Virus record (IMG/VR): IMGVR_UViG_3300027710_000096 | Coordinates: 1-29,453 of that record | Strand: one strand, 5' to 3' | DNA length: 29,453 nt | From: a virus | In this document: positions 3,677 to 28,164 of the stretch, one piece after another | How the letters are laid out: each line of letters begins with the position of its first letter | How positions within the stretch are numbered: the first letter of the stretch is position 1 | Notes under the pieces: generated by a model | Told to the model about the DNA's origin: nothing | The model's database searches: none | Seen by the model: only the letters and a program-made list of their open reading frames with translations | Program-made: the position numbers and the translations under genes

Positions 3677-4366
3677 TTATTTTATACTCAAACTTTGATC
3701 GTGCAGATCACCGATTAATTTCATGAGTTTTTCTATGATTTTACTGTTACGCAGGGTCTTGTATACCAGGTTCTCAATACCGTATTCTCCGGAGTGTTTT
3801 AGGCCTAATTTGCGGTAATTTCGTAGCATTTTTAATACTTTTCGGCCGGTTTCGAGGTCGTTTGATTCGATGGCTTTACCTATGACTGTCTGCCATATTT
3901 TACTCATTCTTATGATTTCTTCACGGTCAATTTCCTCGGGTTGGCTGTCTGGTTTTACCCGCCAACCACCACTGCCCAAACTATATGTTGCACTGACTGC
4001 GGGGAAGTTTGAGTCTTCAATATACACTTCTACGGGAACACCATGTATGCTGATATCGTATTGTTTCTTATAGAGCAAGCGTTTGGTATCAAACAACTCC
4101 GCGGCTTCACGGTCGCAGTCCACAGTATTAAAATCTACAATAATGTGCAGATCCAAATCGCTGTGTTTGGTATAGTAGTAGCCCAATTGACTGCCTGTGA
4201 GCACTAGGTCTTCCACCTTAAAAGGCACTTCAACATAGTCAACAAAGTCTCGGGCTATCTTTAGCAGGGTCATTTTAACTTCGGGACGCAGTTCTTCACC
4301 CTGCCATAACAGCGGGTTAAGTTCGTTGTGTTCTTCAAAACCTAGATCTAACTCAAGTATACGCAT
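3677..4366 (-). CDS. Nucleotidyltransferase-fold protein
   Basis: A 229-residue protein with the Pol-beta-type nucleotidyltransferase signature LTGSQLGYYYTKHSDLDLH: Gly58-Ser59, then the metal-binding Asp70 and Asp72. A third acidic strand (VPVEVYIED) follows about 40 residues later and would complete the catalytic triad. The C-terminal half is helical and basic. Such proteins transfer a nucleotide to RNA, protein or a small molecule; the target here is unknown. It has its own late-promoter-like octamer 7 nt before the ATG and is divergent from the AlgH-like gene. Confidence 0.75.
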   Translation of the reverse strand: MRILELDLGFEEHNELNPLLWQGEELRPEVKMTLLKIARDFVDYVEVPFKVEDLVLTGSQLGYYYTKHSDLDLHIIVDFNTVDCDREAAELFDTKRLLYKKQYDISIHGVPVEVYIEDSNFPAVSATYSLGSGGWRVKPDSQPEEIDREEIIRMSKIWQTVIGKAIESNDLETGRKVLKMLRNYRKLGLKHSGEYGIENLVYKTLRNSKIIEKLMKLIGDLHDQSLSIK

Positions 4367-4373
4367 AGATAGA

Positions 4374-4381
4374 TATTTATC
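4374..4381 (-). promoter_or_regulatory. Late-promoter-like octamer GATAAATA
   Basis: It matches the T4 late promoter TATAAATA at 7 of 8 positions and ends 7 nt before the nucleotidyltransferase ATG at 4366. It is back to back with the plus-strand octamer at 4383-4390. Confidence 0.6.
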
Positions 4382-4382
4382 G

Positions 4383-4390
4383 ATTAAATA
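4383..4390 (+). promoter_or_regulatory. Late-promoter-like octamer ATTAAATA
   Basis: It ends 6 nt before the ATG of the AlgH-like gene at 4397. No Shine-Dalgarno sequence lies between. One base separates it from the opposing octamer. Confidence 0.5.
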
Positions 4391-4396
4391 TGTTAT

Positions 4397-4957
4397 ATGA
4401 TTGAACAGAATTACCGAGGCTACTTATTAGCCGCTCATCCTAAAAGGCCTGACCCACATCTACGTAAGGGAGTCATGTTAGTACTTGATCACGACAATGC
4501 AGGTGCTATAGGATTACAGATTAACAAAACTTTCAGCAGCAATGTTAGCTTTGATACAGTGATGCAGAATGTAGGCTTGCCCAATGATATAGATCAACCT
4601 TTGTATAACGGTGGTCCAGAGTCTACAAATAGAATACACGTAATACATAGCTTAGATTGGTATACTTCTAATACAACTAAACTCACTGATCAGATTGGAG
4701 TCAGCAACGATATCAGTGTGTTGGCTGCTATATCAGACGGGCAAGGTCCTGAATACTTTAGAGTAGTAGCAGGATATACTAGATGGTTACCCGGGCACCT
4801 AGAAGGAGAAATCCTCGGTGAAGAACCTTGGAACATTAATCATACTTGGACCTACTTGCCTGCTGATATTGATACATTGTTTGGTTTGGACAACTCAGAT
4901 CAATGGCATACGGTGATCACTGAAAGTGGCCGTATGCAGGTATCTACTTGGTTTTAA
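4397..4957 (+). CDS. AlgH / UPF0301 family protein
   Basis: A 186-residue protein, the usual length for UPF0301 (DUF179, AlgH). Visible family features are GYLLAAHPKRPDPHLRKGV at residues 8-26, GAIGLQINK near 36-44, YNGGPEST near 74-81 and GYTRWLPGHLEGEI near 131-144. AlgH-like bacterial proteins have an unclear biochemical role, first linked to alginate regulation. A phage copy may modify host regulation or bind a small ligand. The TAA stop shares TTAA (4954-4957) with the stop of the convergent gp41 gene. Confidence 0.85.
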   Translation: MIEQNYRGYLLAAHPKRPDPHLRKGVMLVLDHDNAGAIGLQINKTFSSNVSFDTVMQNVGLPNDIDQPLYNGGPESTNRIHVIHSLDWYTSNTTKLTDQIGVSNDISVLAAISDGQGPEYFRVVAGYTRWLPGHLEGEILGEEPWNINHTWTYLPADIDTLFGLDNSDQWHTVITESGRMQVSTWF

Positions 4958-6435
4958 TCTTTTTCGCTGTTTAGGCCTGCAAGCAAATTTCTAATAGCAG
5001 TAGCTTTTGGAGCATCAACTCTAGGCTTGCTTAAATCAAATCCTTCTTTAGGACTTGCCCTTTCCCACCCGGCACTACTGGTTTCCCCGCTGTCAGATGT
5101 GGTGTTAATAGCACTGGTACGTTTTAGTCCTGCATACACACTACTACCTCCACCATTGTTCTGCCGTTGTTGATTGAAGCTGCCTTCTTCCTCTTCACCT
5201 AGGTCAGTGATACGCAGAGTTTCTACATTAAACTCTAGATCAACCTTTTGTCCAACGCCCGAGCTAGAACGTGTCTTCATGAACTGGATTTGATAACGCC
5301 CACGTTCCTTCATAGCCCTAGAAGTAAAGATACCAATAACATTATCCGCCGTCATAATCTTTGACAAGCCACCTGAGATGTGACTGTGATCAAATTCAAT
5401 TTCTTCAACGGCTGAACGATTTAACTGTGACGCTGTAACAGTAATACATTGTGTTTCCATGGCCAAGTTACGAATCTCTTCTGATACATATTTGTCTTTG
5501 ACAAACAGGTCACTGGGGCTAACTTTAACACTCAGCGGCATCATCAAATCCAAATAGTCAATTAGAATAACGTCGGGCTTGCAACCTTTCTTAACTTGGT
5601 ATTCTTTCAAATAAGCACGAATGTCGTTACAGTTCTTGCCAGATGGCATATACTTGACCTGCAAGTTACCTGCCTTTTTGCCCAGCATCTTAACCTTGAG
5701 CTCGACGTCATCGATGCTCTTGAATACTTCGCGAGTTGAGATACCTGTCATCATAGAGTCCAAACGCATAGACACTAAACCTTCACTCAATTCGAATGTA
5801 AGATACAATACATTAAGTCCTTGTAACGCCCAGTTTACACCCATGTTGGCTAAGAACAAACTCTTACCACCACCTGATCCTGCACAGAAGATATTCAACT
5901 CTCCACGGTTAAATCCACCATAAAGTTTCTTATCAATACTAGGCCATCCTGTGCTAATCTGTCCGTTACCATCTTTCAGTTTGCTTAGACGTGCCCTAGG
6001 ATCTTCAAAGTAATCTGTGCCCATGTCCTTGTTAAGGCTAATCTGGATGGCATCCTTGATCAGCTTTTCTACTGGACCGTAGTCACCTGCTTCTAGTAGA
6101 TCACTGGAGTCGATAATAGCTCTCTCCAATCCTTTGTGTCTACTAAACTGCTCAAACTCGTTCATCAACCAGTCATAATTTTCCTTGGGCAATTGTACAG
6201 GATTTAGGTCTGCACCTGTGCTAGCATTGACAATTGTTGCCTCGGGCATGACCTTGTATTCATCTACATACTTGTTAATGAATGTAGCAATGTCTTGCAG
6301 TCGTTGGTCAAAGTTTAGTGGATCAAAAATATTTTGACAGCGAACAAACGTTTCTGCATCGCTCATGAACATTTCGAGATACAGTCGTTGAATGTCGTAG
6401 TTGTAATTTGGTTTAGGTGCTTTTTCTTTACTCAT
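4954..6435 (-). CDS. gp41: Replicative DNA helicase gp41 (DnaB-like)
   Basis: A 493-residue DnaB-family helicase, close in size to T4 gp41 (475). The N-terminal helical domain (about 1-140) would form the hexamer collar and primase contact. The RecA-like motor starts near residue 160 (STGWPSIDKKLYGGFNRGE), with Walker A AGSGGGKS at 185-192, helicase motif H1a around LYLTFELSEG, and Walker B-type VILIDYLDLMMP. The last 70 residues are Ser/Asn/Gly-rich and probably disordered. It unwinds duplex DNA at the phage fork. It overlaps the primase gene by 8 nt, so the two primosome subunits are probably co-translated. Confidence 0.95.
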   Translation of the reverse strand: MSKEKAPKPNYNYDIQRLYLEMFMSDAETFVRCQNIFDPLNFDQRLQDIATFINKYVDEYKVMPEATIVNASTGADLNPVQLPKENYDWLMNEFEQFSRHKGLERAIIDSSDLLEAGDYGPVEKLIKDAIQISLNKDMGTDYFEDPRARLSKLKDGNGQISTGWPSIDKKLYGGFNRGELNIFCAGSGGGKSLFLANMGVNWALQGLNVLYLTFELSEGLVSMRLDSMMTGISTREVFKSIDDVELKVKMLGKKAGNLQVKYMPSGKNCNDIRAYLKEYQVKKGCKPDVILIDYLDLMMPLSVKVSPSDLFVKDKYVSEEIRNLAMETQCITVTASQLNRSAVEEIEFDHSHISGGLSKIMTADNVIGIFTSRAMKERGRYQIQFMKTRSSSGVGQKVDLEFNVETLRITDLGEEEEGSFNQQRQNNGGGSSVYAGLKRTSAINTTSDSGETSSAGWERASPKEGFDLSKPRVDAPKATAIRNLLAGLNSEKD

Positions 6436-7432
6436 CTTTTAGTGCTTCTAGTTTTTTCTTCATTAGATTTATTTTTATCTCTCCCGAGACTCTGTAGTGC
6501 AAGATTGTGGTTAGAACATAGAGTCTGCCATATTTTTTAACAGCATCTGCAACGTCTTTGATATCATCGCTCCACGGCGGTGAACTGGCACTCCAGCCAT
6601 TGTCTATTGCAGCCTTAAGCATTTTAGCTCCGGGTCTATCTTTATCGGGTACTACAATTACTTCTCTAGCTAGAGCATTTATCCTAGCTACTTGAGCTTC
6701 GTTAGGTTCGTTGGTCATAATAGCCACACCGTCTATAGCAATGGCATCAAATTGACCTTCAGTGACAATGACAAACTTTCTATTGTAGTCCTGTGTATCT
6801 ATATTAAACACGTAACCGCTTTGGCTATCTGTAAGATACTTAGGTTTACCATCTGTGATCTTTCTTCCTGTATATCCTACAATCTTTCCATCTTGATAAA
6901 AAGGTATTAACACTCTATCTATATAACCGGGGGCAGGACTCCACATCCAGTTATACCAATCTAGATCCATTCCACGACCTATAATGTATTCTACTATTTT
7001 ACCAATATCTTCTGCAACGTCAGGCAAGTAACCAGTGTTAATCCATTCCATCACAGTCATGGTGCCTTCAGGCAAGGATCTTTCTAGTAATGTTAGGTTA
7101 AGTGCTTTCTTAAGTACTGGCTGATCATCTTTGATCTTCATGGTAGCCAGATTAAGTTTTCCTATATCTATCTCGCTCATTCCAATCCATTGGAACAAGT
7201 TTCTTGAATTCTTACTTAATAGTTTACCAGGTGTCCAACCTGCGGCAAACCCGCAGTTAAAGCAATGATAAACAAATCCGTCTTTTTCTATTTTAATACC
7301 GCCACGGAGCCTGTCATCTTGACGTTCGCCTCTATGGTGACAGCAGGGTGCGTTGAAACTTGTCCAACCGCCAGATGTCAGTTTTCTTTTTGGAGGCAGT
7401 AATGCTAATAATGCAGATTGTATATCATTCAC
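6428..7432 (-). CDS. gp61: DNA primase gp61
   Basis: A 334-residue primase, close to T4 gp61 (342). The N-terminal zinc-binding module shows APCCHHRG (residues 28-35) and VYHCFNCGF (54-62). The TOPRIM catalytic domain shows VIVTEGQFDAIAI with the conserved glutamate, then VIVVPDKDRPG with the acidic metal ligands. It makes RNA primers for lagging-strand synthesis together with gp41. The start is a GTG at 7432, in the same frame as the upstream stop at 7442; no in-frame ATG lies nearby before the zinc module. It overlaps gp41 by 8 nt. Confidence 0.9.
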   Translation of the reverse strand: MNDIQSALLALLPPKRKLTSGGWTSFNAPCCHHRGERQDDRLRGGIKIEKDGFVYHCFNCGFAAGWTPGKLLSKNSRNLFQWIGMSEIDIGKLNLATMKIKDDQPVLKKALNLTLLERSLPEGTMTVMEWINTGYLPDVAEDIGKIVEYIIGRGMDLDWYNWMWSPAPGYIDRVLIPFYQDGKIVGYTGRKITDGKPKYLTDSQSGYVFNIDTQDYNRKFVIVTEGQFDAIAIDGVAIMTNEPNEAQVARINALAREVIVVPDKDRPGAKMLKAAIDNGWSASSPPWSDDIKDVADAVKKYGRLYVLTTILHYRVSGEIKINLMKKKLEALKDE

Positions 7433-7441
7433 ATATACAGT

Positions 7442-8278
7442 TTAACTTCTGTAGAGAACTTTGTCAAGTGTTCCGGAGTAAGCAGTATTTCTATTGTCCG
7501 TATCAGTAGGACCTTTGGCTGGAACATGTTTGATTCGAATATATGAATACACTCCATTGAAGTTAGCGTAGCCAATTCCGGTATAACCGTTATAGGTTAA
7601 GGTGCTGACCACAGAATAGTTTTCACTGCTATCTGGAGTGTTGTCCAATGTAGCTTCAACATAAACGGTGCCTTTGTAAGCTGTCATATAAACGGCCACA
7701 GTATGTAATGCTGAGTTTCCGTTAAATGCTGGATCTGCATAAAGGTTACCACTAAGATTTTCATACAATTGAGTTTCGTCATTCCAAACTGGATTGAATG
7801 TAGTAACTGAAACGCTGTCCTTGAGCACTGGATTTACATCGTTACTTAAATGCAGGGTTCCAGCCATACCGTAATAAGTATTTGAATATGCAGGAGTGTA
7901 ACTACCATCGGAGTCTAATAATTTTACGCTGTATTGATAGCTGGTTCTATCTAAGTCTAGAGTATCGCTTTCGTTGAGAGTTAATAGAGCAAGTCCGCGT
8001 GTAGCAGTAGTTCCAAGATCTAAAACATCTAATTCTTTCTCTACTATCAGTCGTTGGTTAATTGCATCAAACATACTGAATACAAATGTTTGGGTATTAT
8101 GAATTGTAACCTTTTTCTGATCGCTGTTTTTAAACTGGACTCGAACTTGGTTCTTAATCCCTTTTTGTATTTTCAAGTCTCGTTGATACATAACCTGGTT
8201 AACTCCCCTAGTAGTAGCGTCCAAATCTAATATAACGGCGAGTGTATTTGGATATAAATAGATTGGTAAATTTTGCAT
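7442..8278 (-). CDS. Virion structural protein (tail/fibre type)
   Basis: A 278-residue, beta-rich protein beginning LPIYLYPNTLAVILDLD, followed by QVMYQRDLKIQKGIKNQVR and FKNSDQKK. This N-terminal layout resembles BppU-like domains that attach fibres to baseplates, and the pattern recalls structural proteins of cyanophage-type T4-like phages. The rest is rich in Thr, Tyr, Asn and Gly, typical of fibre or adhesin beta domains. It has a late-promoter-like octamer 5 nt upstream of its ATG, consistent with late expression. It lies directly upstream of the primase gene, so late transcription would enter gp61-gp41. The exact tail position is unknown. Confidence 0.7.
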   Translation of the reverse strand: MQNLPIYLYPNTLAVILDLDATTRGVNQVMYQRDLKIQKGIKNQVRVQFKNSDQKKVTIHNTQTFVFSMFDAINQRLIVEKELDVLDLGTTATRGLALLTLNESDTLDLDRTSYQYSVKLLDSDGSYTPAYSNTYYGMAGTLHLSNDVNPVLKDSVSVTTFNPVWNDETQLYENLSGNLYADPAFNGNSALHTVAVYMTAYKGTVYVEATLDNTPDSSENYSVVSTLTYNGYTGIGYANFNGVYSYIRIKHVPAKGPTDTDNRNTAYSGTLDKVLYRS

Positions 8279-8283
8279 AAGAG

Positions 8284-8291
8284 TATTTATT
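8284..8291 (-). promoter_or_regulatory. Late-promoter-like octamer AATAAATA
   Basis: It matches TATAAATA at 7 of 8 positions and ends 5 nt before the ATG at 8278. No Shine-Dalgarno sequence lies between (the spacer is CTCTT). Confidence 0.55.
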
Positions 8292-8299
8292 TAAAAATA

Positions 8300-8677
8300 A
8301 TGAGCGATCAGTTTCAAGAAAAATTCCCCTTTATATCTTGCGTTAAATCCAATGATAAAGAATACGTGGGCATTGTTATCAACTTTGATGATTACATTGC
8401 CAGCATCTACGATCTATCAATGATATTAGGCGAAGCTGAACGCACTCTATTTTTAGAAATGGGTGAGATTTGGTGGTGGGAAAGTAATCGAAAAATACCT
8501 ATCAATATTTTTCTAAAATCTGAAATGCAGGTATTTAGGCCGTTTATTAAAACATTTAATTCTAAAGATGCAGAATTAGTCTTTGGGCCAACCGTTAATC
8601 TCAGCGAAATTGCCGAGAAACGTATAAAAAGAAAATCAATTCAATTAGTAAGATCAGTTAAGAATATCCGTAACTGA
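8300..8677 (+). CDS. Conserved phage hypothetical protein
   Basis: A 125-residue protein from the ATG at 8300 (MSDQFQEKFPF). A TTG-initiated form from 8273 would overlap the divergent gene. The middle holds EYVGIVINFDDYIASIYDLS, then GEIWWWESNRKIPINIFLK and FGPTVNLSEIAEKRIKRKS. The WWWESNRKIPINIFLK segment looks highly constrained, and I recall similar proteins from marine T4-like phages, without an assigned function. No membrane or signal segment. It converges on the DnaE-like gene with a 20-nt overlap. Confidence 0.75.
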   Translation: MSDQFQEKFPFISCVKSNDKEYVGIVINFDDYIASIYDLSMILGEAERTLFLEMGEIWWWESNRKIPINIFLKSEMQVFRPFIKTFNSKDAELVFGPTVNLSEIAEKRIKRKSIQLVRSVKNIRN

Positions 8678-9236
8678 TACCTTCACAAATCAAATTCATC
8701 TGTACTACTACTGCCATAGCATAGGCTACAGCATGAGCCTTCTTAAAGTAGTATTCACCATCCTCGGGCTTTGTCCAAATAGTCGTCATCACTGTCGTCC
8801 AGTCTGTCCCAATCAAGTGTCTCTTGGCGGGACGTATCATAGCCAAAACTGCCGCTAGTTGGAGTATACTCTTCGGTTTCATCTGCCTTAGGATGGAGCC
8901 GTGCCCGTTGACGTGAAATAGTAAGTTGCTGAAATCGTCCTGCTCTAAAAGGTCCCATAGTGGTTCGGTTTCCATTAAAGTTTTGAGATGCTCTTCATCT
9001 CGTATATCTTTATATATGCCTACATTCAAAAAATCTATCTTAAAGTAGCCTCTATCTTCGGCTTTTTTGTATTCTATGCTGGCTGTGTCTGTTAACGGAT
9101 TATACGGTATAGCATGACAATATACGCCAGTATTGTGCTTTTTAAAAGTATTATTTTCTTTTTGGGCCGCCGGAACGTGTTGGATAATATCCAAAACTTT
9201 TTTCCTATCGGCAAAGTCAATATCAATATCCGGCAT
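8658..9236 (-). CDS. Miniature DnaE-like (DNA polymerase III alpha core) protein
   Basis: A 192-residue protein matching, in order, several core motifs of bacterial C-family polymerases, with large deletions between them. PDIDIDF at residues 2-8 corresponds to the catalytic PDxDxDF (Asp401/Asp403 of E. coli DnaE). FKIDFLNV (65-72) corresponds to the KFDFLGL carrying the third catalytic Asp555. LLFHV (105-109), MKPKSI and AVLAMIRPA correspond to the FQLE and ALFRPG regions. YFKKAHAVAYAM (163-174) corresponds to FNKSHSAAYAL. The PHP, thumb-to-fingers bulk and C-terminal domains are absent; DnaE is about 1,160 residues. An earlier ATG at 9272 would add METTHHHTTRSD. The gene overlaps the kinase gene by 14 nt. 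Whether it polymerises DNA is unknown. Confidence 0.8.
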   Translation of the reverse strand: MPDIDIDFADRKKVLDIIQHVPAAQKENNTFKKHNTGVYCHAIPYNPLTDTASIEYKKAEDRGYFKIDFLNVGIYKDIRDEEHLKTLMETEPLWDLLEQDDFSNLLFHVNGHGSILRQMKPKSILQLAAVLAMIRPAKRHLIGTDWTTVMTTIWTKPEDGEYYFKKAHAVAYAMAVVVQMNLICEGISYGYS

Positions 9237-9993
9237 GTCTGATCTCGTCGTATGATGGTGCGTAGTTTCCACGGTGTTGCACAGTTATGCCTGCGGCAAC
9301 ATTAGCAAATATTATAGCTTTTTCTATGTCTTTTGTAAAGAGATATTGAGCAACCAGTGCCGCCATAAAAGTGTCTCCGCAGCCGCATACATCCATAACT
9401 TCGACTGACTTAGTTGGACAATATATGTCGTGGTGTGGAACTTTTGCACCTCGGTCTCCTAGTGTAACAATTAGACCAGAACACTCACTTTTGAGCTTAC
9501 TGTATTCTAATTCATTGACCTTAACCCATGCACCCTGGAAACGTTCTACATTTGTTTTCTTAGTATCAATAAAAACTGGACTCTTTACTGATCCTATGAT
9601 ATTTTCAATATGTTCATATGTTAGGAACCCTTTATCATAATCTGAAATAACAATAGCATCATACGTTTCTAATGGACTAGGTGTTGAGCCTGACCATTGC
9701 ACGACATTATCTTCATCATCAACTCTCAATAGATGTTGTCCTGAACGTTTGTCTATGAATCTAGTTTTTGTAATTGAAGTATCGTTGTGTATAAAGTCCG
9801 CTTCAATATTTAAATTTACCAAATTGCGATGTACGTTTGCACTCATGCCTGGTAATGAAAATGTTTCTACAATTTTAACAACAGGTACAGGAGCCTCAGG
9901 GCTCAATCTATCTACTGTACCTATGTTATAGATATCAGTGCAACTATCACCGATTAGTAATACGTTGAATGATGTTTGTTGTTGAGTATCCAT
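9223..9993 (-). CDS. PfkB-type sugar kinase, HldE kinase-domain like
   Basis: A 256-residue ribokinase-family protein resembling the kinase half of HldE (RfaE), which phosphorylates D-glycero-D-manno-heptose 7-phosphate. Visible features are LLIGDSCTDIYNIGTVDRL near residues 12-30, SPEAPVPVV (31-39), the substrate loop PGMSANV near 47, and VCGCGDTFMAAL, the GxGD catalytic motif with the base Asp. The usual AGDT is CGDT here. It is shorter than the bacterial domain (about 315). It overlaps the adenylyltransferase gene by 47 nt, so the two HldE activities are encoded as separate adjacent genes in the order opposite to bacterial HldE. The true substrate could be another sugar. Confidence 0.85.
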   Translation of the reverse strand: MDTQQQTSFNVLLIGDSCTDIYNIGTVDRLSPEAPVPVVKIVETFSLPGMSANVHRNLVNLNIEADFIHNDTSITKTRFIDKRSGQHLLRVDDEDNVVQWSGSTPSPLETYDAIVISDYDKGFLTYEHIENIIGSVKSPVFIDTKKTNVERFQGAWVKVNELEYSKLKSECSGLIVTLGDRGAKVPHHDIYCPTKSVEVMDVCGCGDTFMAALVAQYLFTKDIEKAIIFANVAAGITVQHRGNYAPSYDEIRHAGY

Positions 9994-10342
9994 CTACTAG
10001 CTTTACAAATTTAATTTCTTTACAATACTTGGCACCTACAATTCGTTTGCCTTCGTAATCACTGCCCTTAACCATTATGTTAGGTTGATACATTTTACAG
10101 ATTCTTTCTAGGTCCTCTTCGGAATCAAATGTCCAAACTGCATCTACACATTTTAATCCCTGAAGCATAAATGCTCTATCAGCCTGATTATTAATAGGTC
10201 TGCCTTCACCTTTAAGTTCTGTTACACGGCGGTCGGTATCAATACAAACTAAAAGAAATTCTCCTAGCCCTTTAGCATATTCTAGTAGTTCAACATGTCC
10301 ACGATGTAGTATGTCAAACGTGCCATTAACTATAATTTTCAT
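9947..10342 (-). CDS. Sugar-phosphate adenylyltransferase, HldE C-domain like
   Basis: A 131-residue cytidylyltransferase-fold protein resembling the adenylyltransferase half of HldE. The nucleotide-binding HxGH motif is in GTFDILHRGHVELL (residues 7-20). LLVCIDTDRRV and the NIMVKGSDYEGKRIVGA segment fit the family's DxLVKGGDY motif. The bacterial enzyme makes ADP-heptose for LPS core. The start overlaps the upstream cupin stop as ATGA, and the kinase gene follows with a 47-nt overlap. A likely use is sugar activation for surface or DNA/protein modification; no glycosyltransferase is in this window. Confidence 0.88.
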   Translation of the reverse strand: MKIIVNGTFDILHRGHVELLEYAKGLGEFLLVCIDTDRRVTELKGEGRPINNQADRAFMLQGLKCVDAVWTFDSEEDLERICKMYQPNIMVKGSDYEGKRIVGAKYCKEIKFVKLVDGYSTTNIIQRITNR

Positions 10343-10698
10343 TTTTGGCTGTCGCCTTTACCTACACGATAATTATCTTCCACACTGTCTGGAGTACTCA
10401 CTTCAATAACAGTACCAGCTTCGATGCACTCTAGTTGATGTGGCATACAGGGTGTATTATGCCACACTGCACCATCACGCAATTCTTCTTCGTGTAGTTC
10501 AGCAGTCTTAGTATCAATCCAACGAACAATAAACTTGCCGCTTTGTATATACCAAGTTTCTTCTTTGTCTTTATGGAAGTGCATACTAAACTTGGCACCT
10601 GCATTAAAGTTCATAAACTTGCCGCAATACTTGTCGTTAGTGGCCCAGATAAATTCTGACCCCCAACCTTTTGGAACTAGACCTTTTAATTGTGTCAT
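10339..10698 (-). CDS. Cupin, mannose-6-phosphate isomerase-like
   Basis: A 119-residue single-domain cupin. The start at 10698 (MTQLKGLVPKGWG) overlaps the upstream stop as ATGA; a longer frame to 10743 is not needed. The metal-binding motif is HFHKDKEETWYI with a GK turn, followed by WHNTPCMPHQLE holding the second-motif histidine. The layout fits type-II mannose-6-phosphate isomerase or GDP-mannose pyrophosphorylase C-domains. Its position directly before two HldE-like genes suggests sugar interconversion. Substrate unproven. Confidence 0.8.
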   Translation of the reverse strand: MTQLKGLVPKGWGSEFIWATNDKYCGKFMNFNAGAKFSMHFHKDKEETWYIQSGKFIVRWIDTKTAELHEEELRDGAVWHNTPCMPHQLECIEAGTVIEVSTPDSVEDNYRVGKGDSQK

Positions 10699-11251: not shown

Positions 11252-11253
11252 GC

Positions 11254-14047: not shown

Positions 14048-14050
14048 GAT

Positions 14051-17691: not shown

Positions 17692-17693
17692 AC

Positions 17694-19012: not shown

Positions 19013-19025
19013 GTCTATCTCCTAA

Positions 19026-20024: not shown

Positions 20025-20082
20025 AATAATGTTTCCTTAATAAAGTTTTATGTGCCGCTTCCTTAAAGCCAACTGACTAAAA

Positions 20083-20118: not shown

Positions 20119-20156
20119 ATTTATGTTTGCAACCTAAAAGGTGCAGATAATATGGT

Positions 20157-22760
20157 TTATTTTGCCAAACCTGCTAAACGTAAAATGTCGGCCATTTCTG
20201 GTAAAGGTCCTGATGGGCCGTGTTTACCTTTGTTGAATTCGATATCACGTTTCAAACTATTAGTAGGGCCGCCAGCTAATGAGCCTTTGCGGCCGGTTCT
20301 ATCTGTCTTACGTAGGTCATCTGGACCATGTTGTTTACGGTGACCTAGTCTGTCAAAGTTAGGTGCTTTACCGCCGTGATTAACGCCAAGGTCGCCACGT
20401 AGTGCTCGCATAGCATCGCCCATGTTCTTAAAGGTGCCATCGACATCCATATCATTTTCGCTGTCATGGTATTCAACTTTAACTTCGCCAGTCTTCAAAT
20501 TGTGTTCAATAGTTCCACGGCCGTAGTAGCCGCCTTCACCGTCATCATATTCGTAATGATCAACCTCGGGTGTTGACATGTCTTCTTCTTTGTGCCATCC
20601 GCTCCAATTACCGCTGAGTTTACTAAGTGCTGTGGCTAGGTCGCCGGGTCCTTCGCTCATACCTAGTTCTGCTTTCTTACGAGCCAATCCTGCCGAGCTT
20701 GTTGGGCTATTGGTTTTTTCTTTTTCCAAATCTTTGGTAGACATTTTCCAATCGCCGCCTTGTTCTTTGCGTTTGTATGCAGGTACTTGGCTCTTGTCTG
20801 GACCGCTTTCATTTGGACCACGGTCATCTGGAACGCCAGCAGCCTTTAATGCGTCTGCCCTGTCACCATAACCTTTAACGCCTGGCTTGATATCTTTAGA
20901 TGCTTGTCTAATTGCGTCTTTCTCTGAATCGGACGCATTGCTAGCATCAACGTGTTTCATTGTTGTAGAAGCTTGATGACTTTCTCTGCCTTCTACTTTT
21001 GCCTTGATGTTGCCCACTAGTTCTTTTAATCTTGCTAATCCGTCATCACCATTAACAGGTGTACCGTGACGTTGTTGCCATTCCATGGTTAATTTGTTCA
21101 TGAATTGTTCTGCCATTTGAGCCGCTTGCTCACCCGCTTCTTCGCCAAATTTTTCTGCAATTTGTTTCTTAACATCGAGTGCAATACCTTCACCTCCGCG
21201 GAATGGTCCAACTTCTGGGTTGTCACGATTGTAAAAACTCTTAACAATCTTAGCAACTTCTTGTACCATGTTGCCTTCCTTACCTTCAGCAACTGGAGGT
21301 TGTGCAGGAGGAGCCGCCGGAGCAGGTGCAGCCGGTGGCATTTCTGGTGCAGGTGGTTCTTGACCAGTACCGCTCAATCCAAGTGCTACTAATAGTTCTG
21401 GGTAACTTTCTTGAGCCCACATTTTTAAAACTTCCATAGGATCAGCAGATGGATCTAATTCAGATGCTGATTTAAATTTATCTTCTAAATCAGAATCAGT
21501 TAGACCCAAACCGCTAAAGAATTGCCATGCTGTTTGACCGTCTGGACCTAATTCTAATTCGCCGTTAGGCAGTTCGTTCATTGCTTGTTTTAGTGCTTCA
21601 ATTTCGTCGTCTGTTAGTTTGCCTTGTTCAGTAGCTTCTGCCCACTCTTCAAATTTGCTGAACGCACCTTCTTTAACTCCGCTATCACATACACACGGAT
21701 CTTCTTTGCAGTCTGGGCAAATGTCTGTTTCTTCACTTACATATTCTTCTAGGTCTACTGTATTTGTTTCTTGCATAATTCTGTGAATCAATGGAAAGAA
21801 ACTTGCTAGGTCTTCTTTGAAATTTGTTTCTGTAAATTTTGCTTTATAAGTTTCCATGGTCACAGGATCTAGTTCCATTAGGTCATCGCCTTGGTCTACA
21901 CCTGCTAATTCTCCTACCCATGATTCATAATGATGGCGCTTGCTTAGTGCTTCGATAGTTGCTTTTAGTTCATTTAATCGGCCTACGGCCCTTTCTGTAA
22001 TTCCCATAGCGTCATCATGTAAACTTGTGTGCTGTACTTGTCTTTGGAATTCTTGTAGTTGTGCAATCTGTTCACTCATACGAACGATGGCCTTACCAGC
22101 CGGATCGTGCGGAACACCACCATGGTCAACGTGTTGAGCCATAGCAAATGCGCCTGCTGGATGAATGAACGGATATTTAAATCTTTCTCCGTCTCTGTTT
22201 TGAATGTAAATTGCCTTGATGTTATTTCGTTGGCTGCGAGCACCTGGATACATTTCATCAACTGCTTTGTGATGTCTTACAATAACTTCTGTTGCACCTT
22301 TAACTGCGCGGCTAGTTTTCTTAGAACTCTTTTGGTTCCAACGTGATTCGTTCATGTTCATAGTAGGTTCTTCTTCCTTAGGGGCTTGCGTGGCAGCAAG
22401 ATGTTGAAAATCGTTTCTGTCAAGATTTGTCTTGGCAATATCGCGTGTGTCAAAACGCAGTAATCTACGCATGGCAAACATACGCATTTCTTTTAAAAAT
22501 CCATACCAAACTTGTTTGCTAGGATCGTCTTGATTTTCTGTAATACCTTGACTGTAATAAATCTTTAAGCTACCTAGATCGTTTAAGCTGATACTAACAC
22601 GGCCTAAATTTACACCTTCGTTGACAAAGTCAAAATCAAAGAAACGTGCTTCTGCAGGGTCGATAGTAACTGCTCCTGTTTCGTCGCCCATTTCTAAATT
22701 AGTGAAACGGCTGCGAACTTTGTCAAACAGGTCTTGGGAGATTATTTGGATAGCTTTCAT
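20157..22760 (-). CDS. Large late protein, modular, of unknown function
   Basis: An 867-residue protein between the large terminase and gp32. The first 120 residues look folded (FFDFDFVNEGVNLGRVSISL; KQVWYGFLKEMRMFAMRRLL). A central part contains IKAIYIQNRDGERFKYPFIH and helical segments. A CPDCKEDPCVC cluster near residue 350 may bind zinc. Pro/Ala-rich linkers follow, then a conserved-looking EVAKIVKSFYNRDNPEVGPF, a YYGRGTIEHNLKTGEVKVEY domain, and a short C-terminal MADILRLAGLAK. Much of it is low-complexity linker. The late-promoter-like octamer upstream and the terminator downstream make it a separate late unit, probably a virion protein. No family can be named with confidence. Confidence 0.65.
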   Translation of the reverse strand: MKAIQIISQDLFDKVRSRFTNLEMGDETGAVTIDPAEARFFDFDFVNEGVNLGRVSISLNDLGSLKIYYSQGITENQDDPSKQVWYGFLKEMRMFAMRRLLRFDTRDIAKTNLDRNDFQHLAATQAPKEEEPTMNMNESRWNQKSSKKTSRAVKGATEVIVRHHKAVDEMYPGARSQRNNIKAIYIQNRDGERFKYPFIHPAGAFAMAQHVDHGGVPHDPAGKAIVRMSEQIAQLQEFQRQVQHTSLHDDAMGITERAVGRLNELKATIEALSKRHHYESWVGELAGVDQGDDLMELDPVTMETYKAKFTETNFKEDLASFFPLIHRIMQETNTVDLEEYVSEETDICPDCKEDPCVCDSGVKEGAFSKFEEWAEATEQGKLTDDEIEALKQAMNELPNGELELGPDGQTAWQFFSGLGLTDSDLEDKFKSASELDPSADPMEVLKMWAQESYPELLVALGLSGTGQEPPAPEMPPAAPAPAAPPAQPPVAEGKEGNMVQEVAKIVKSFYNRDNPEVGPFRGGEGIALDVKKQIAEKFGEEAGEQAAQMAEQFMNKLTMEWQQRHGTPVNGDDGLARLKELVGNIKAKVEGRESHQASTTMKHVDASNASDSEKDAIRQASKDIKPGVKGYGDRADALKAAGVPDDRGPNESGPDKSQVPAYKRKEQGGDWKMSTKDLEKEKTNSPTSSAGLARKKAELGMSEGPGDLATALSKLSGNWSGWHKEEDMSTPEVDHYEYDDGEGGYYGRGTIEHNLKTGEVKVEYHDSENDMDVDGTFKNMGDAMRALRGDLGVNHGGKAPNFDRLGHRKQHGPDDLRKTDRTGRKGSLAGGPTNSLKRDIEFNKGKHGPSGPLPEMADILRLAGLAK

Positions 22761-22766
22761 ATTAGT

Positions 22767-22774
22767 TATTTATT
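22767..22774 (-). promoter_or_regulatory. Late-promoter-like octamer AATAAATA
   Basis: It matches TATAAATA at 7 of 8 positions and ends 6 nt before the ATG at 22760. It touches the last codon of gp17. No Shine-Dalgarno sequence lies between. Confidence 0.55.
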
Positions 22775-24353
22775 AATAATTGCTGATGTATATAGGCATG
22801 GGCATTAAGAATTCATCCTCGCGTTCTTCGCGCATTTTATCGTAGATAGCGGGATCCCATTCTTGTAACATCAGCGCCATGCGTATAACCAGCAATGTAG
22901 CACTAACTAAGTCATCGTGTAAGCCTACTTTAGCTTCAAAACTAACGCCTTTTGCAATGTATCCTTTAAGTTCGCTGATCAGCGGTTTACTTCGAATACG
23001 GAATCTTTTGCTTTCTACAAGATGCTTTAACTTAGCACAGGCATTAATTTTACTTGAGTTTGTAGTGTTAAATCCTTTACGGAATCTACGAACATGTCCT
23101 TTCTTAATAGGCTCACTTAGGAACAAACCTGGGATACTTTCTTCACCTATTTCTTCAATGGCAACTAGGGCAGCCTCACCAATATTGTTATTTTCTACTG
23201 AATAATAAATGCTAGACTGCACACCTTTACTAGCACACTCGTCGTTAATAAAATTGCATAAATCTCTAAGGATGCGAACTTGTCCTTGAACTGTTGTTAA
23301 ATTATGCTGCCATTCTGCTACTTGTTCAAAGCTAGGAATTTCTAAGATTTGTATAGCTGCAGGGTCACCGCCTGTCCCTAAACTAGGATCTAATGCTAAC
23401 AAATAGGTACTCATAGGATTAATCTTTTTGTACCAACGTGCTTGCCCCATCTTCATGTAAGGCTCATCACCTTCCATGCCTGCAAGACAAATACTATTAA
23501 TCAGTGTTTCATCAAAGACTAAGAATTCACAATCGTGTTCTCGACGGAAACGTTCTTCACCAATGCGGCTACGTTCTTCATTGGCCCATACTTCATCACG
23601 ATCAGGGTGTTCATTCCAATATGCCCTGAATGGAAAGAATCCATTCTTGCCTAGTGTTTGTTCATTGCCAAATTCGTCAAATCTGTGGTTAGCTTCTTTC
23701 CATATGTTAGCAAATTGGTCTTCGTCACTGTTAGGAGTAGAAGTGATAATTGCCTTACCACCTGTGGCTAGTGTAGGTGAAATTGACGTCCAGAATTCAA
23801 CGGCAATGTTAGGTTCAACGAACGCAAACTCGTCAGCGTATAGTAATGACAGTGACAAACCACGACCGGTTGTTTCAGTTGTAGTCTGTGCAATAATACG
23901 TGAGCCGTTGTCAAATTCAATACTTTGTTTGTTATAACTCTTTACACCACAGCGTATATGATTAGCACAAAGTTCGTATGCATATCGAATACGACTCATA
24001 ATTTCTTGAGCACCAGTAAACTTGTGGGCAGCTACTAATACTGTAGCATCAGGAATGAACATCGCATACCATAGTAAATATCCTGCGGCTGTTGTTGTCT
24101 TACCTGTCTGACGAGGTAATAAATTTACGTTAAAGCGATTTCCGTGATAGCTGTCAATCAGTCTACGTTGATATTCAAAAGGTTCGTATTTTAGTTTGCC
24201 TTTGGTAGGATGTTGGATATAAAAGAAATTGTCAAGAAAAAAGTGTGGACCGTCAACTGGGTCTGAACACTTCATAAGATCTTCAATGTCTTTTTCAGTG
24301 TATCTGTCAGCACTGTATGCAGTCTTGACTAGTTTGTTATCTGTATATGCCAT
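22773..24353 (-). CDS. gp17: Terminase large subunit gp17
   Basis: A 526-residue DNA-packaging motor, shorter than T4 gp17 (610). Walker A is PRQTGKTT (80-87), Walker B LLYADEFAFVE (170-180), and the coupling motif follows in ITSTPNS. The nuclease domain has its first Asp in ALDPSLGTGGD (about 320-330), a Glu in YYSVENNNIGEA, and the final metal ligands in HDDLVSATLL. It translocates DNA into the prohead and makes the headful cut. It stands alone between a terminator upstream and its own late-promoter-like octamer, whereas gp16 is three genes upstream. Confidence 0.96.
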   Translation of the reverse strand: MAYTDNKLVKTAYSADRYTEKDIEDLMKCSDPVDGPHFFLDNFFYIQHPTKGKLKYEPFEYQRRLIDSYHGNRFNVNLLPRQTGKTTTAAGYLLWYAMFIPDATVLVAAHKFTGAQEIMSRIRYAYELCANHIRCGVKSYNKQSIEFDNGSRIIAQTTTETTGRGLSLSLLYADEFAFVEPNIAVEFWTSISPTLATGGKAIITSTPNSDEDQFANIWKEANHRFDEFGNEQTLGKNGFFPFRAYWNEHPDRDEVWANEERSRIGEERFRREHDCEFLVFDETLINSICLAGMEGDEPYMKMGQARWYKKINPMSTYLLALDPSLGTGGDPAAIQILEIPSFEQVAEWQHNLTTVQGQVRILRDLCNFINDECASKGVQSSIYYSVENNNIGEAALVAIEEIGEESIPGLFLSEPIKKGHVRRFRKGFNTTNSSKINACAKLKHLVESKRFRIRSKPLISELKGYIAKGVSFEAKVGLHDDLVSATLLVIRMALMLQEWDPAIYDKMREEREDEFLMPMPIYISNY

Positions 24354-24358
24354 GCATT

Positions 24359-24366
24359 TATTTAAT
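24359..24366 (-). promoter_or_regulatory. Late-promoter-like octamer ATTAAATA
   Basis: It ends 5 nt before the gp17 ATG at 24353 and directly follows the upstream terminator. No Shine-Dalgarno sequence lies between (the spacer is AATGC). Confidence 0.55.
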
Positions 24367-24367
24367 G

Positions 24368-24395
24368 AAAAAAATAGACCCCGAAGGGTCTATTT
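24368..24395 (-). terminator. Strong rho-independent terminator before gp17
   Basis: On the minus strand, AAATAGACCC (24386-24395) and GGGTCTATTT (24372-24381) form a 10-bp stem with a TTCG tetraloop, followed by a T-run. It ends the upstream unit and leaves gp17 to its own promoter-like octamer. Confidence 0.88.
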
Positions 24396-24412
24396 GGTAA
24401 AGGTAAAACTTA

Positions 24413-25075
24413 TCAGTTTTCGCTGACAAACCTTTTGTATTGTGCAAATAGATCTGTTACTGCTTCGTTCATATCTGCGTATGCTTTTGGACGATCTCCG
24501 TCCATTCTATCGCCTTGCCCTGGCTGATTCTCTTGATGTGCAAACTGGTTTGCATCAAATTCATTCTTTTTATTAGGGTCAGATGGAGTATTGTCATACT
24601 CGTCAACTGGCTCTTTCTTTTCCATATCGTGATCATCCATGTCGTGATCGCCGTCGTTGTCTAGATCGCCGTGTGCTTTATTAACATCATCTTCGCCACC
24701 TTCGTCATCGCCATCCATTGGATTTAATTTGTCAATAACACTACGCATAGTGTCAGCTGGAGATCCACCGCCTGCTGGTTCTAGTGTTCCAGGTGCAGGA
24801 GGTGCATTGTCTAATGGAGGAGATGCTGATACAGGTTTGTTTTGACCTGCTAGTTGCATGATGGTAGCTAACATGTTGCTTAGTTCATCACCACTGCCTG
24901 CTGTCATGTTAATGCTTGCTGGCATAGATGGCTTCTCTGGAGCAATGTCCACACCCATTTCTGGAACCATGCCTGGCATCATGCCACATTCTTCAACTTG
25001 CTGACTTTCCTTAATAATGTTAGGATTGTCGGCATCAAGTTCTGCCAATCTTTTTAGTACGTCAATCATTTGCAT
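24413..25075 (-). CDS. Acidic virion-associated-type protein, EF-hand-like loop
   Basis: A 220-residue protein from the ATG at 25075, 1 nt after the upstream stop and with AAAGGA about 8 nt before it; a longer frame to 25093 is less likely. The N-terminus MQMIDVLKRLAELDADNP forms a short helix with a possible gp21-type cleavage site after LAE. Met/Pro/Ala-rich linkers follow. Residues in the second half read KAHGDLDNDGDHDMDDHD, a loop like a calcium-binding EF-hand or dockerin loop. The end YKRFVSEN is basic/aromatic. Position beside packaging genes suggests a head protein. Function is inferred. Confidence 0.65.
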   Translation of the reverse strand: MQMIDVLKRLAELDADNPNIIKESQQVEECGMMPGMVPEMGVDIAPEKPSMPASINMTAGSGDELSNMLATIMQLAGQNKPVSASPPLDNAPPAPGTLEPAGGGSPADTMRSVIDKLNPMDGDDEGGEDDVNKAHGDLDNDGDHDMDDHDMEKKEPVDEYDNTPSDPNKKNEFDANQFAHQENQPGQGDRMDGDRPKAYADMNEAVTDLFAQYKRFVSEN

Positions 25076-25076
25076 A

Positions 25077-25664
25077 TTATTTTCCTTTGCCACTTATAGG
25101 GCCAGTTGTTCCTGGTTCTGCATCTGTATTGAACTTGGCAGGACCGTCTGTGGGAATTTCTTCTCCACGCTCGCGTCTTTGTAATTTCAAGATATCATTC
25201 AATTCTTTAACAAATCCACTATTGTATTTGTCACCGTAGTAATCTTCCATTTGAGCATTAGGAGCTTCTTTGTAATCTGGATCAGTTAACAAAGCGCCTT
25301 CTCTCCTGGGCTCAATATTTTGATATTCTTCAGTAGGTTCCATAGGACTGCGAACTACTAAATGTTGTTTACCTACGCCAAGGCCTGTGCTTAGATATTC
25401 TGTTAATTCAAATTGTGTTGTAGGATAATCTAGTACAACTTCGTAGATATTAACTTCACAATTTTTAACTTGCGGAAAATCTAAAGGTAGTGCTTGGATA
25501 GGAGTCTTTGATTTTTTGAATCCTGCTGGAGCATTGCCTGTAGTAAAACGGCTTAGTAAAGTCTTCATTGTATCTTCTTGCTCAGTGGTCATTTCTCCGG
25601 CAATTTTTATACGGAAGTCATACTTCTTTTTAGATTCGGTTAGGTGTTCTTTGAATGATTTCAT
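25077..25664 (-). CDS. Probable head-targeted internal protein
   Basis: A 195-residue protein. The N-terminus MKSFKEHLTESKKK closely resembles the capsid-targeting sequence of T4 internal proteins (MKTYQEFIAEA), with a gp21 protease-type site after LTE. The rest has DFRIKIAGEMTTEQEDTM, TPIQALPLDFPQVKNCEVNI and YEVVLDYPTTQFELTEYL, and ends in an Arg/Gly/Pro-rich tail. I recall similar proteins near terminase genes in cyanophage-type T4-like phages. The octamer 7 nt upstream of the ATG suggests late expression. Confidence 0.7.
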   Translation of the reverse strand: MKSFKEHLTESKKKYDFRIKIAGEMTTEQEDTMKTLLSRFTTGNAPAGFKKSKTPIQALPLDFPQVKNCEVNIYEVVLDYPTTQFELTEYLSTGLGVGKQHLVVRSPMEPTEEYQNIEPRREGALLTDPDYKEAPNAQMEDYYGDKYNSGFVKELNDILKLQRRERGEEIPTDGPAKFNTDAEPGTTGPISGKGK

Positions 25665-25670
25665 AGTGTA

Positions 25671-26153
25671 TTATTTATTAAGATTCTTTAGTTTCTCCAG
25701 GATGCTATTACGATCTGTAATAATATATCCCTCGCCCTCTACGGTATTTCCGCTGCCTTCACCGTGTTTTTTGTCTATGGCTAGTTTCTTAAGCTGTAGA
25801 TCAACCATCTTTAACTTCTTATCAATCTTGTTAGTTTTAGCTGTAATAGCGGCATTCATCATCTGTGCGGCCACTTCGAACATGCGGGACCCGTAACGTG
25901 CTTCCACGTTCATGCCCAAATCCATCAGGTCGTCGTAGGCTTTTTCAGCTTTGTCTGCAAGTGCATCTAACTCCGAATCGCTGATATCGCCTAGCCCTTT
26001 TACACGGGGAAGTGCGGCTGCAATTTTATCAAATTCTTCTAATTTTTCTTCTAGATTAATTGTGGGCACAGGACTTACATCAACTGCTTCTGCCTGAATA
26101 ACAGGCTCACTAGCAGGTTCTATGTTCAAGAGTTCTTCTAACTTTTTTGTCAT
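25671..26153 (-). CDS. gp16: Terminase small subunit gp16
   Basis: A 160-residue helical protein, near T4 gp16 (164). The start at 26153 (MTKKLEELLNIEP) is 4 nt after the gp4 stop; the frame is open further but would overlap gp4. The core reads LADKAEKAYDDLMDLGM, then SRMFEVAAQMMNAAITAK and KMVDLQLKKLAIDKK. This is the helical-hairpin layout with a MFEVxAxMM segment of T4-type small terminases. gp16 forms a ring that recognises DNA and stimulates gp17. It lies two genes upstream of gp17 in transcription. Confidence 0.78.
   Translation of the reverse strand: MTKKLEELLNIEPASEPVIQAEAVDVSPVPTINLEEKLEEFDKIAAALPRVKGLGDISDSELDALADKAEKAYDDLMDLGMNVEARYGSRMFEVAAQMMNAAITAKTNKIDKKLKMVDLQLKKLAIDKKHGEGSGNTVEGEGYIITDRNSILEKLKNLNK
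25672..25679 (-). promoter_or_regulatory. Late-promoter-like octamer AATAAATA
   Basis: It matches TATAAATA at 7 of 8 positions and ends 7 nt before the ATG at 25664. It lies over the last codons of the gp16 gene, and no Shine-Dalgarno sequence follows. Confidence 0.55.
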
Positions 26154-26157
26154 ATTT

Positions 26158-26604
26158 TTACTTATTCCGTTTTCCACCATTCTGGAAAATATCGCTCTCA
26201 TTAACAATTCTAAACTTAATACCTTGCTGACTACACCAATCTGCGGCTGCTGACCACTTGGCTTGATTCTTGATAAATTGGGCTTGGTTGTAGGGATTTT
26301 TACCTACACGTTCTTTTAGGGTTTGATTTGCAGGTTTTATTTCTACAATTTCAACGTGCTTTTTCATATTCCTATCAACATAAGAAATTAAAAAATCAGG
26401 GACGTAAACTGTATGCTTGCCAGTCAATGGATCTCTATAGGGAATTTTTACACTTTCGCTGGACCATTGCTGTATGCTAGGATTGTTATCACAGAAAGTC
26501 ATAAAGGTAAATTCCCAAGAACTTCTATATCTAGGAGCACTCTGTCCCATATATTTTTCAGGGTTTTTTATTTTGTAGACCCCTTGGCTAAACTTTAAGC
26601 TCAT
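26158..26604 (-). CDS. gp4: Head-completion nuclease gp4
   Basis: A 148-residue protein, near T4 gp4 (150). YRSSWEFTFMTFCDNNPSI (26-44) matches the YRSNWE motif of the family. Further features are WSSESVKIPY, VYVPDFLISY and VEIVEIKPANQ, in which the PDF and ExK positions form a restriction-endonuclease-type core. The C-terminus (WCSQQGIKFRIVNE) fits T4 gp4. It is thought to finish filled heads before tail joining. It is joined to the upstream gene by ATGA at 26601-26604. Confidence 0.9.
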   Translation of the reverse strand: MSLKFSQGVYKIKNPEKYMGQSAPRYRSSWEFTFMTFCDNNPSIQQWSSESVKIPYRDPLTGKHTVYVPDFLISYVDRNMKKHVEIVEIKPANQTLKERVGKNPYNQAQFIKNQAKWSAAADWCSQQGIKFRIVNESDIFQNGGKRNK

Positions 26605-26969
26605 GCTACAATGTTTCTTTGAATTTCAGGATGAGTTTGAAATTTTTCCGCATAGCCTAAGCTACTACTTTTAAATCTGTTGTAATTTAAAATTTCAGAT
26701 ACTAGACCAGATAATTGTACATTGTCCAAACCTTTTAGAGTATCTAAAATTTGCATAGGATTATATCCATCCTGCTTGGCCTGTCTAATAATTGTAACGG
26801 CAATAGATTCGGCAGCTACTTCACCGAAGTCTCTATTAGTGAAATATCCTTTCATAGCAGCCAACACTGATGAATTAATTTCAACTGGCATGTTTGTGTA
26901 TGAGTCAAATGCTTGCACTGTTGATTCTTGAGATTTACTAACAGGAATGTTAGAATAATTTTGATTCAT
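26601..26969 (-). CDS. Conserved virion-region protein
   Basis: A 122-residue, largely helical protein. The middle reads FGEVAAESIAVTIIRQAKQ, DGYNPMQILDTLKGLDN, then LSGLVSEILNYNRFKSSSLG. I recall close patterns in cyanophage-type T4-like genomes near head and tail genes. No membrane segment or catalytic motif. It is in the late operon with gp4 and gp16 and starts 2 nt after the previous stop. Confidence 0.7.
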   Translation of the reverse strand: MNQNYSNIPVSKSQESTVQAFDSYTNMPVEINSSVLAAMKGYFTNRDFGEVAAESIAVTIIRQAKQDGYNPMQILDTLKGLDNVQLSGLVSEILNYNRFKSSSLGYAEKFQTHPEIQRNIVA

Positions 26970-26971
26970 AA

Positions 26972-28117
26972 TTATCTTTTAGGTGGAAATAAAATTGCGG
27001 CAGGATTTGCTCTGATTTTTCCGTCAACGCTAGTATTAAATGCTTTAAAAATATTAATACCAACCCCGCCTGGTAAATTAAATATTCCAGGCTGATATTC
27101 TGTATTCGGAGGAGTATAATATTTGCCAGGTGAAGTTTTTGTCAGCGCTCCTAATGCACCGCTGGCTATATTATAACCTGTGGCTTTTGTTCGTGTAATA
27201 CCTTTTGTGTTTACATAATTTTTAGCAAGAATTTTAGCAATGTCTAAAAGGGGATTAGGAGAATTATATGCACCACCAACTTTGCCAAATACTCTCTGGG
27301 CACCCGGTTTATCAAACCCTGTCTGTTGCTTGACATAATAAGGATTGTTTATAGGATTTCCTGCAATTTGTAACGGACTAGGTGTTTTGTCATAATACAC
27401 CGCAGTAAACCCCGGAGGATTAGTTTCTGCAACAATCTGTCCGTAATCATATAAAACGTTTTCGTAGGCAAGGTTCATTCTATTCTGCATGGTCTTGCTG
27501 CCTTCAGCCTGGTTCAACGAATCGTGTGCCCATTCTGTAATCTTAGGATTAATTAGTGTTACTTGAGTAAAATTTTGTTGGTGTAAACTATAAATTTCTA
27601 CTGAAGTAAGGAAGGGAACTTTAACTTGGTTATCATAGATACCGTATTGATAATCTGTTTCACCATACTTAGTATCTCTAAACGCTACAGGTACTTCACC
27701 ATTGGTTCCATAGCTACTGTCTGCAAAATAATGTTTGTAATAGTTAATCCATAGTTTGTTGATAATATCAAAATTATCATCATGAAAATCTAAACTAACA
27801 GGAGTATAGGTTAATTTAGTAGGTACTATTGTTTTTCTATTATATTGATTTAGAGTCTCAGTGGCAATTGTAAATTTAGGAAGGTCAACTTTTTTAACTA
27901 ACAGCCCAACATCCATTGAGCTTTTATTTCTCCATTCTTGATCTATGATAGCATCTGGATTAATATTGAATACTACATAATAGAGAAAACCAACTTTAGG
28001 AGAGTATGCATAGTTGTCGTCAATATACAATCGACTAGCATGTTGATAGTCTTTTAAATTAGGATATCCCTTAGTATATCCTGTGCCAGATAGATAGTTA
28101 GTAAATGCGTTACTCAT
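26972..28117 (-). CDS. Tail-tube-like virion protein
   Basis: A 381-residue protein. Residues about 42-150 resemble the T4 gp19 tube domain: YVVFNINPDAI, VKKVDLPKFTIATETLNQYN, then KLTYTPVSLDFHDDNFDIIN. Compare this with the rims of gp19 (the ExxLP, then IRDD order) in the next gene. The remainder is Asn/Pro/Tyr-rich with a long irregular tail, which suggests a tube-initiator or tube-end protein (as gp48/gp54 in T4) rather than the main tube. Its own octamer lies 5 nt before the ATG. The assignment to a T4 gene is not possible from the sequence alone. Confidence 0.6.
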   Translation of the reverse strand: MSNAFTNYLSGTGYTKGYPNLKDYQHASRLYIDDNYAYSPKVGFLYYVVFNINPDAIIDQEWRNKSSMDVGLLVKKVDLPKFTIATETLNQYNRKTIVPTKLTYTPVSLDFHDDNFDIINKLWINYYKHYFADSSYGTNGEVPVAFRDTKYGETDYQYGIYDNQVKVPFLTSVEIYSLHQQNFTQVTLINPKITEWAHDSLNQAEGSKTMQNRMNLAYENVLYDYGQIVAETNPPGFTAVYYDKTPSPLQIAGNPINNPYYVKQQTGFDKPGAQRVFGKVGGAYNSPNPLLDIAKILAKNYVNTKGITRTKATGYNIASGALGALTKTSPGKYYTPPNTEYQPGIFNLPGGVGINIFKAFNTSVDGKIRANPAAILFPPKR

Positions 28118-28122
28118 ACAAA

Positions 28123-28130
28123 TATTTAGT
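28123..28130 (-). promoter_or_regulatory. Late-promoter-like octamer ACTAAATA
   Basis: It ends 5 nt before the ATG at 28117, directly downstream of the gp19 terminator. No Shine-Dalgarno sequence lies between (the spacer is TTTGT). Confidence 0.55.
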
Positions 28131-28132
28131 CA

Positions 28133-28164
28133 AATAAAAAGCTCGGGTTTTTATGCCGAGCTTT
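28133..28164 (-). terminator. Rho-independent terminator after gp19
   Basis: On the minus strand, AAAGCTCGG (28156-28164) and CCGAGCTTT (28138-28146) form a 9-bp stem with a 9-nt loop, followed by TTTATTTG. It separates gp19 from the next late unit. Confidence 0.85.

Follow-up and report, generated by a model that had tools for sequence, protein, structure and literature searches.

Transcription of the late genes of phage T4 is a textbook system, in which the late genes carry Shine–Dalgarno (SD) leaders. The presence, in DNA of a T4-like virus, of T4-type late octamers only a few nucleotides before start codons raises the question of whether such a phage could make late proteins from mRNAs that begin at, or almost at, the AUG. 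The DNA concerned (the window, the whole 29,453-base stretch analysed) is a complete IMG/VR record and a fragment of a T4-like myovirus genome, with a base composition of 60% AT. Profile matches (Pfam/PHROG) identify genes for a gp17-type terminase, the gp19 tail tube, a second tube-like protein and head closure, together with gp32, UvsX, UvsY, a DNA helicase, a primase and a gp41-type helicase; the gene order of gp17, gp19, gp32, UvsX and UvsY is common to the window and the PA5oct/Phosso group of T4-like myoviruses. A near-identical match to the window was sought among phage records and none was found. The G+C content at 1–3600 is 45–49% compared with about 40% overall, and several plus-strand ORFs lie there. 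At 9223–10342, adjoining sugar-kinase-like and nucleotidyltransferase-like ORFs resemble the two halves of a heptose kinase/adenylyltransferase; a related gene with a late box at a spacing of 5 nt, in the relative G004 (L112:13289–14089), matches the heptose kinase/adenylyltransferase PHROG.

An earlier note on this DNA had listed eight octamers ending in TAAATA, and their coordinates and distances (d) from the ATG all proved correct when checked against the sequence (Table 1). Those at 4383 and 1449 lie on the plus strand and the others on the minus strand; the TAAATA core of the TATAAATA-like box is exact at all window sites. Support from beyond the window was obtained for seven of the eight, and the start codon is ATG in all seven of the corresponding genes (scans covered ATG only); for the gene starting at 4397, for example, all three distinct homologues found have short spacing and no SD. 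The exception is the octamer at 1449, which the note had listed with the other late-promoter-like octamers. No homologue of its 62-aa ORF was found in any of the fetched loci, so this site is probably a chance match.

Table 1. Coordinates of octamers, terminators, genes and related features (window positions unless another contig or phage is named; d, nt between octamer and ATG)
Feature	Position	Strand	Remarks
Late octamer ATTAAATA	24359..24366	-	d=5, ATG 24353; gp17-type terminase gene
Intrinsic terminator AATAGACCC-TTC-GGGGTCTATT + T-run	24367..24395	-	Ends at terminase octamer; likewise in most related loci
Terminase large subunit gp17	22773..24353	-	Predicted leaderless mRNA; Pfam Terminase_6N and PHROG matches
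Late octamer ACTAAATA	28123..28130	-	d=5, ATG 28117; second tail-tube-like gene
Terminator-like hairpin + T-rich run	28131..28164	-	Adjoins octamer of tube-like gene on its upstream side; similar hairpins in homologues
Late octamer AATAAATA	22767..22774	-	d=6, ATG 22760; large virion structural gene
Late octamer AATAAATA	25672..25679	-	d=7, ATG 25664; phrog_14802 virion gene; overlaps stop of upstream ORF
Late octamer AATAAATA	8284..8291	-	d=5, ATG 8278; phrog_14467 virion gene; d=4 in G001 orthologue
Late octamer GATAAATA	4374..4381	-	d=7, ATG 4366; left half of divergent promoter pair
Late octamer ATTAAATA	4383..4390	+	d=6, ATG 4397; right half of divergent promoter pair
Late octamer GGTAAATA	28856..28863	-	d=21, ATG 28834 of gp19; AAGGAG leader; long class
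gp19 tail tube protein	28184..28834	-	Normal SD leader; PHROG tail tube, E 6e-43
CTTAAATA	1449..1456	+	d=4, 62-aa ORF (start 1461); left out of system
Back-to-back boxes TATTTA-N4..6-TAAATA	window 4364-4399; L091:17495; L093:7543; L098:12406; L104:3328; L118:14181; HTVC008M 18914		Each box 4–8 nt from a start codon
bS21 genes	PA5oct 170985; HTVC008M 91237; Phosso 389762; Atu_ph07 489120		

The two strands of the window hold 19 TAAATA hexamers, eight of which sit 4–7 nt before an ORF-opening ATG compared with 0.08 expected (binomial P ~6e-15, or ~2e-5 when any ATG is counted). The signal is far stronger outside the window: in 1.04 Mb of related viral DNA, with simple ORF calls and only ATG starts scanned, 164 TAAATA sites lie 4–7 nt before an ORF ATG where 2.3 were expected, an enrichment of about 70-fold. 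When the clade is pooled, no hexamer occurs exactly 5 nt before ATG as often as TAAATA (118 cases, background 2.5), which thereby outranks every SD word at that distance. The 32 chosen loci gave 89 cases of TAAATA at d=5, 116 at d=4–7 and one at d=0–3, and whole contigs of 92–221 kb gave the same peak at d=5. Across the clade the distribution of spacings has its mode at 5, is nearly empty from about 9 to 16 and shows a second, smaller peak at 21–23, and among single-base variants only position 4 of TAAATA tolerates change, to G or T.

Such a pattern might be put down to chance in AT-rich DNA or to TAA stops that happen to adjoin start codons, since the window is itself AT-rich and some boxes include the stop codon of the upstream gene; chance does account for the single site at 1449. 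For the set, however, this explanation is refuted, and the probability that we leave to it is negligible. The excess over expectation is too great for base composition to be the cause, and overlap with upstream stops was likewise rejected because the d=5 peak persists (79 cases) after removal of all starts with a nearby upstream stop. Permutations of the hexamer with the same letters, other TAA-starting ones among them, show no such peak, except where they overlap the box by a single base. The view of the earlier note that the 4–7 nt spacing is not due to chance is thus borne out.

The T4 late box occupies positions −13 to −6 relative to the transcription start site (PMC1524935), about one helical turn upstream of it (PMC2988020). 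With this start position carried over from T4, +1 at d=5 would be the A of the AUG, which argues strongly for a leaderless mRNA in genes of this spacing, and spacings of 6–8 would leave a leader of a few nucleotides. A pyrimidine directly precedes the AUG in 97% of 101 clade genes with the box at short spacing (the short class) compared with 63% of box-less genes, in agreement with the usual transcription start of a pyrimidine at −1 and a purine at +1. A similar signature was sought in genes with the box further upstream (the long class), where pyrimidine–purine steps are spread over several positions and give no independent fix of +1. SD words occur in one of 99 short-class genes, in 25 of 32 long-class genes and in about 45% of genes without a box. 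Because the start site is carried over from T4 and initiation can move by a few nucleotides, transcription might begin further downstream or upstream than in T4, or the true start codon or leader might differ. We regard this as very unlikely, as homologues align from their first residues at the annotated ATG, a pyrimidine–A step lies at the AUG and the spacing is sharply 5, with 9–16 nearly empty.

Short spacing is a property of particular gene classes. Late boxes precede terminase, tube-like, adaptor and virion genes and almost never homologues of gp32 and uvsX. Short spacing without an SD was found in 129 of 184 distinct terminase homologues; of 48 homologues of the second tail-tube-like gene, 46 are short and none has an SD, the large virion structural gene starting at 22760 is short in 93 of 115, and the neck genes mostly lack an SD leader. 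The earlier note had set gp19 apart as an exception, and this is general: all 95 distinct gp19 homologues have an SD, and 72 of them have a box at least 14 nt upstream, mostly at 20–24. Strong SDs are also retained by the tail sheath gene (five contigs), with a late box about 30 nt upstream, and by the major capsid gene (four contigs), with no box close by. Orthologues of the virion gene at 25077–25664 occur in both states: none of the 45 short copies has an SD, whereas 67 of the 74 long ones do, with several switches between short and long and a minimum of about seven changes on the tree. These sequence patterns suggest that the bulk virion proteins are made via SD leaders, whereas the leaderless type serves for several of the less abundant ones. 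From T4 virion copy numbers we infer that the difference between short and long may serve dosage. The idea that leaderless mRNA accounts for most late proteins went too far: short spacing does predominate among the recognised late promoters of the core clade (about 100, compared with 33 long), but neither the operon-internal genes, which have no promoter of their own, nor the most abundant structural genes belong to this type.

Conservation was followed most widely at the terminase gene. A terminase search of IMG/VR returned at least 599 related stretches, of which 80 were retained; TAAATA plus 4–7 nt precedes the terminase ATG in nearly all of those that include the gene start, frequently with an intrinsic terminator upstream that ends at the box. 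With distant relatives added, short spacing was present in 84 of 87 loci whose terminase is at least 65% identical, and in 13/52, 33/73 and 9/39 loci of the next successive 5% identity bins. On the terminase tree the window falls inside a clade in which short spacing is almost fixed, and the trait recurs in sister clades; the minimum of 10 changes of state is approximate, because the tree was built with FastTree only. Five contigs binned into bacterial or archaeal MAGs (L145, L146, L147, L148 and L149) are T4-like phage contigs with conflicting labels, likely through binning errors, and the terminase gene of L145, from a ‘Euryarchaeota’ MAG, has short spacing (d=4). Assignment of a host from the five MAG contigs that carry relatives was rejected, as their terminases are at most 64% identical and the MAG labels conflict. 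In the 221-kb relative G001, 41 tRNA genes are clustered at L083:5650–18512, and several genes among them have a short late box.

The sites at 4374 and 4383 together form the arrangement CAT-N7-TATTTA-N5-TAAATA-N6-ATG, i.e. two back-to-back late boxes, each adjoining an ATG; the earlier note had listed the two sites without pointing out the pairing. An orthologous pair is present in G001 at 207543–207577, and in other contigs similar pairs separate a head–tail adaptor gene from a divergent virion gene. The two start codons are about 30 nt apart, which leaves scant space for leaders, and such a pair would constitute a bidirectional late promoter giving leaderless mRNA on both sides. The same pairs bear on the possibility that the late promoters are genuine but that longer read-through transcripts account for most translation of the genes, leaderless RNAs being minor. 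The late regions of T4-like phages are polycistronic, and 60 of the 175 short sites, about a third, overlap or abut the stop codon of the upstream gene, so that longer RNAs could serve for those genes too. Divergent pairs, however, lack any same-strand gene upstream, and at 51 of the 175 short sites a terminator ends at the box, as at the terminase octamer of the window, where read-through RNA should therefore stop; moreover, the SD is absent there even on a read-through RNA. Translation mainly from such transcripts thus seems to us unlikely. We find it less credible still, indeed highly improbable, that TAAATA is an AT-rich translation-start element and no promoter. A-rich, SD-less start regions do aid initiation in several bacteria, but the preference here is for an exact word with one tolerated position; that word is identical to the late box of T4-like phages, recurs 20–24 nt upstream of SD genes and forms back-to-back inverted pairs.

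Late promoters of this type require a gp55-like late sigma factor, as the earlier note had recognised, and one is encoded by each of the three longest relatives, G001, G002 and G003 (phrog_12791/phrog_234, E down to 1e-85); the window, being a fragment, has none. A clamp search with phrog_223 matched T4 only, with no match in the clade, but it also missed PA5oct. Ribosomal protein bS21 was considered as a linked translation factor and ruled out as the cause, since Phosso and PA5oct carry it and lack the trait; no bS21 match was obtained in the clade contigs, all of which may be fragments.

Box, spacing, absence of the SD, gene-class rule, conservation and gp55 are thus all directly visible in the sequences. 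We consider it very probable that the octamers are T4-type late promoters, most of the recognised ones in the clade lying 4–7 nt before the start codon and giving leaderless or nearly leaderless late mRNA. In our working model, host RNA polymerase carrying the phage gp55-like sigma factor would read the octamers and start on the A of the AUG at a spacing of 5, or slightly upstream of it at 6–8, and the resulting mRNA would be translated by recognition of the 5′-AUG without SD pairing. At about 20–24 nt upstream (about 30 for the sheath), the same promoter would give a short leader with a strong SD, as predicted for tail tube and sheath, so that promoter position would set the mode of translation: terminase, neck proteins and several other structural proteins would come from leaderless mRNA, and the bulk virion proteins from mRNA with an SD leader. 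A broader proposal, towards which we lean only slightly, is that this T4-like branch and, separately, the pelagiphages have a two-tier late programme, in which the distance from gp55 box to AUG (5 versus at least 20 nt) sets leaderless or SD translation and thereby the amount of protein, divergent promoters being leaderless on both sides.

The T4 promoter word thus appears to be joined directly to the start codon both in cultured Pelagibacter phages and across uncultured phages of a widespread group. This suggests a simple and evolvable switch between leaderless and SD translation, by a promoter shift of about 15 nt, and one orthologue has switched several times. The spacing rule would also aid gene-start calling in phage metagenomes, and the question can be addressed directly in HTVC008M, whose host is in culture. 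Late-promoter prediction has been reported to fail in Pelagibacter myophages (PMC7029224), which short spacing may explain.

Comparison with known phages places these promoters close to those of T4 (gp55/gp33/gp45 dependent, TATAAATA), with which the clade shares the −10-like box before late genes and a phage gp55. In T4, however, the box lies mostly 20–30 nt before the ATG (peak at 28) and never at 4–8, which fits an SD leader, whereas the mode in the clade is 5; unlike in T4, the octamer of the clade has no fixed first base. The cyanophages S-PM2 and Syn9 have the same TAAATA core and a gp55 match, but their boxes are at least 12 nt, mostly 19–40 nt, before the ATG, with none at 4–8. A d=5 peak was sought in T4, S-PM2, Syn9, phiM12, PA5oct and Phosso and found in none of them. 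TAAATA does stand exactly 5 nt before the ATG, as in the clade, in 11 genes of HTVC008M and six of Mosig EXVC030M, both cultured Pelagibacter phages, and, more weakly, in three of the Methylophilales phage Melnitz, the d=5 spike being sharp in each; the tube, sheath and capsid genes of HTVC008M keep their SDs, following the same rule as the clade. Among the HTVC008M ORFs, those starting at 49760 and 75830 are examples with d=5, and the one at 46310 belongs to those with d=18–21. All three are Kyanoviridae, a different T4-like branch, so that short spacing either has several origins or is ancient and has been lost many times, and their box, unlike that of the clade, is often followed by G (TATAAATAG). 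Other large phages with unusual late promoters, phiKZ and AR9, differ from the clade in using a phage-encoded RNA polymerase; the phiKZ late motif is TATG with the G as +1, and AR9 leaders are 26–491 nt long. In a literature search outside which most subscription journals fell, no paper was found that joins leaderless mRNA with T4-like late promoters. Leaderless mRNAs are known for some bacteriophage genes. They also occur in mycobacteria (PMC4633059). In both, transcription starts at the AUG and the SD is absent, as predicted for the clade, but those mRNAs come from host or other promoters, whereas in the clade a single class of viral late-sigma promoter would give rise to them for many structural genes.
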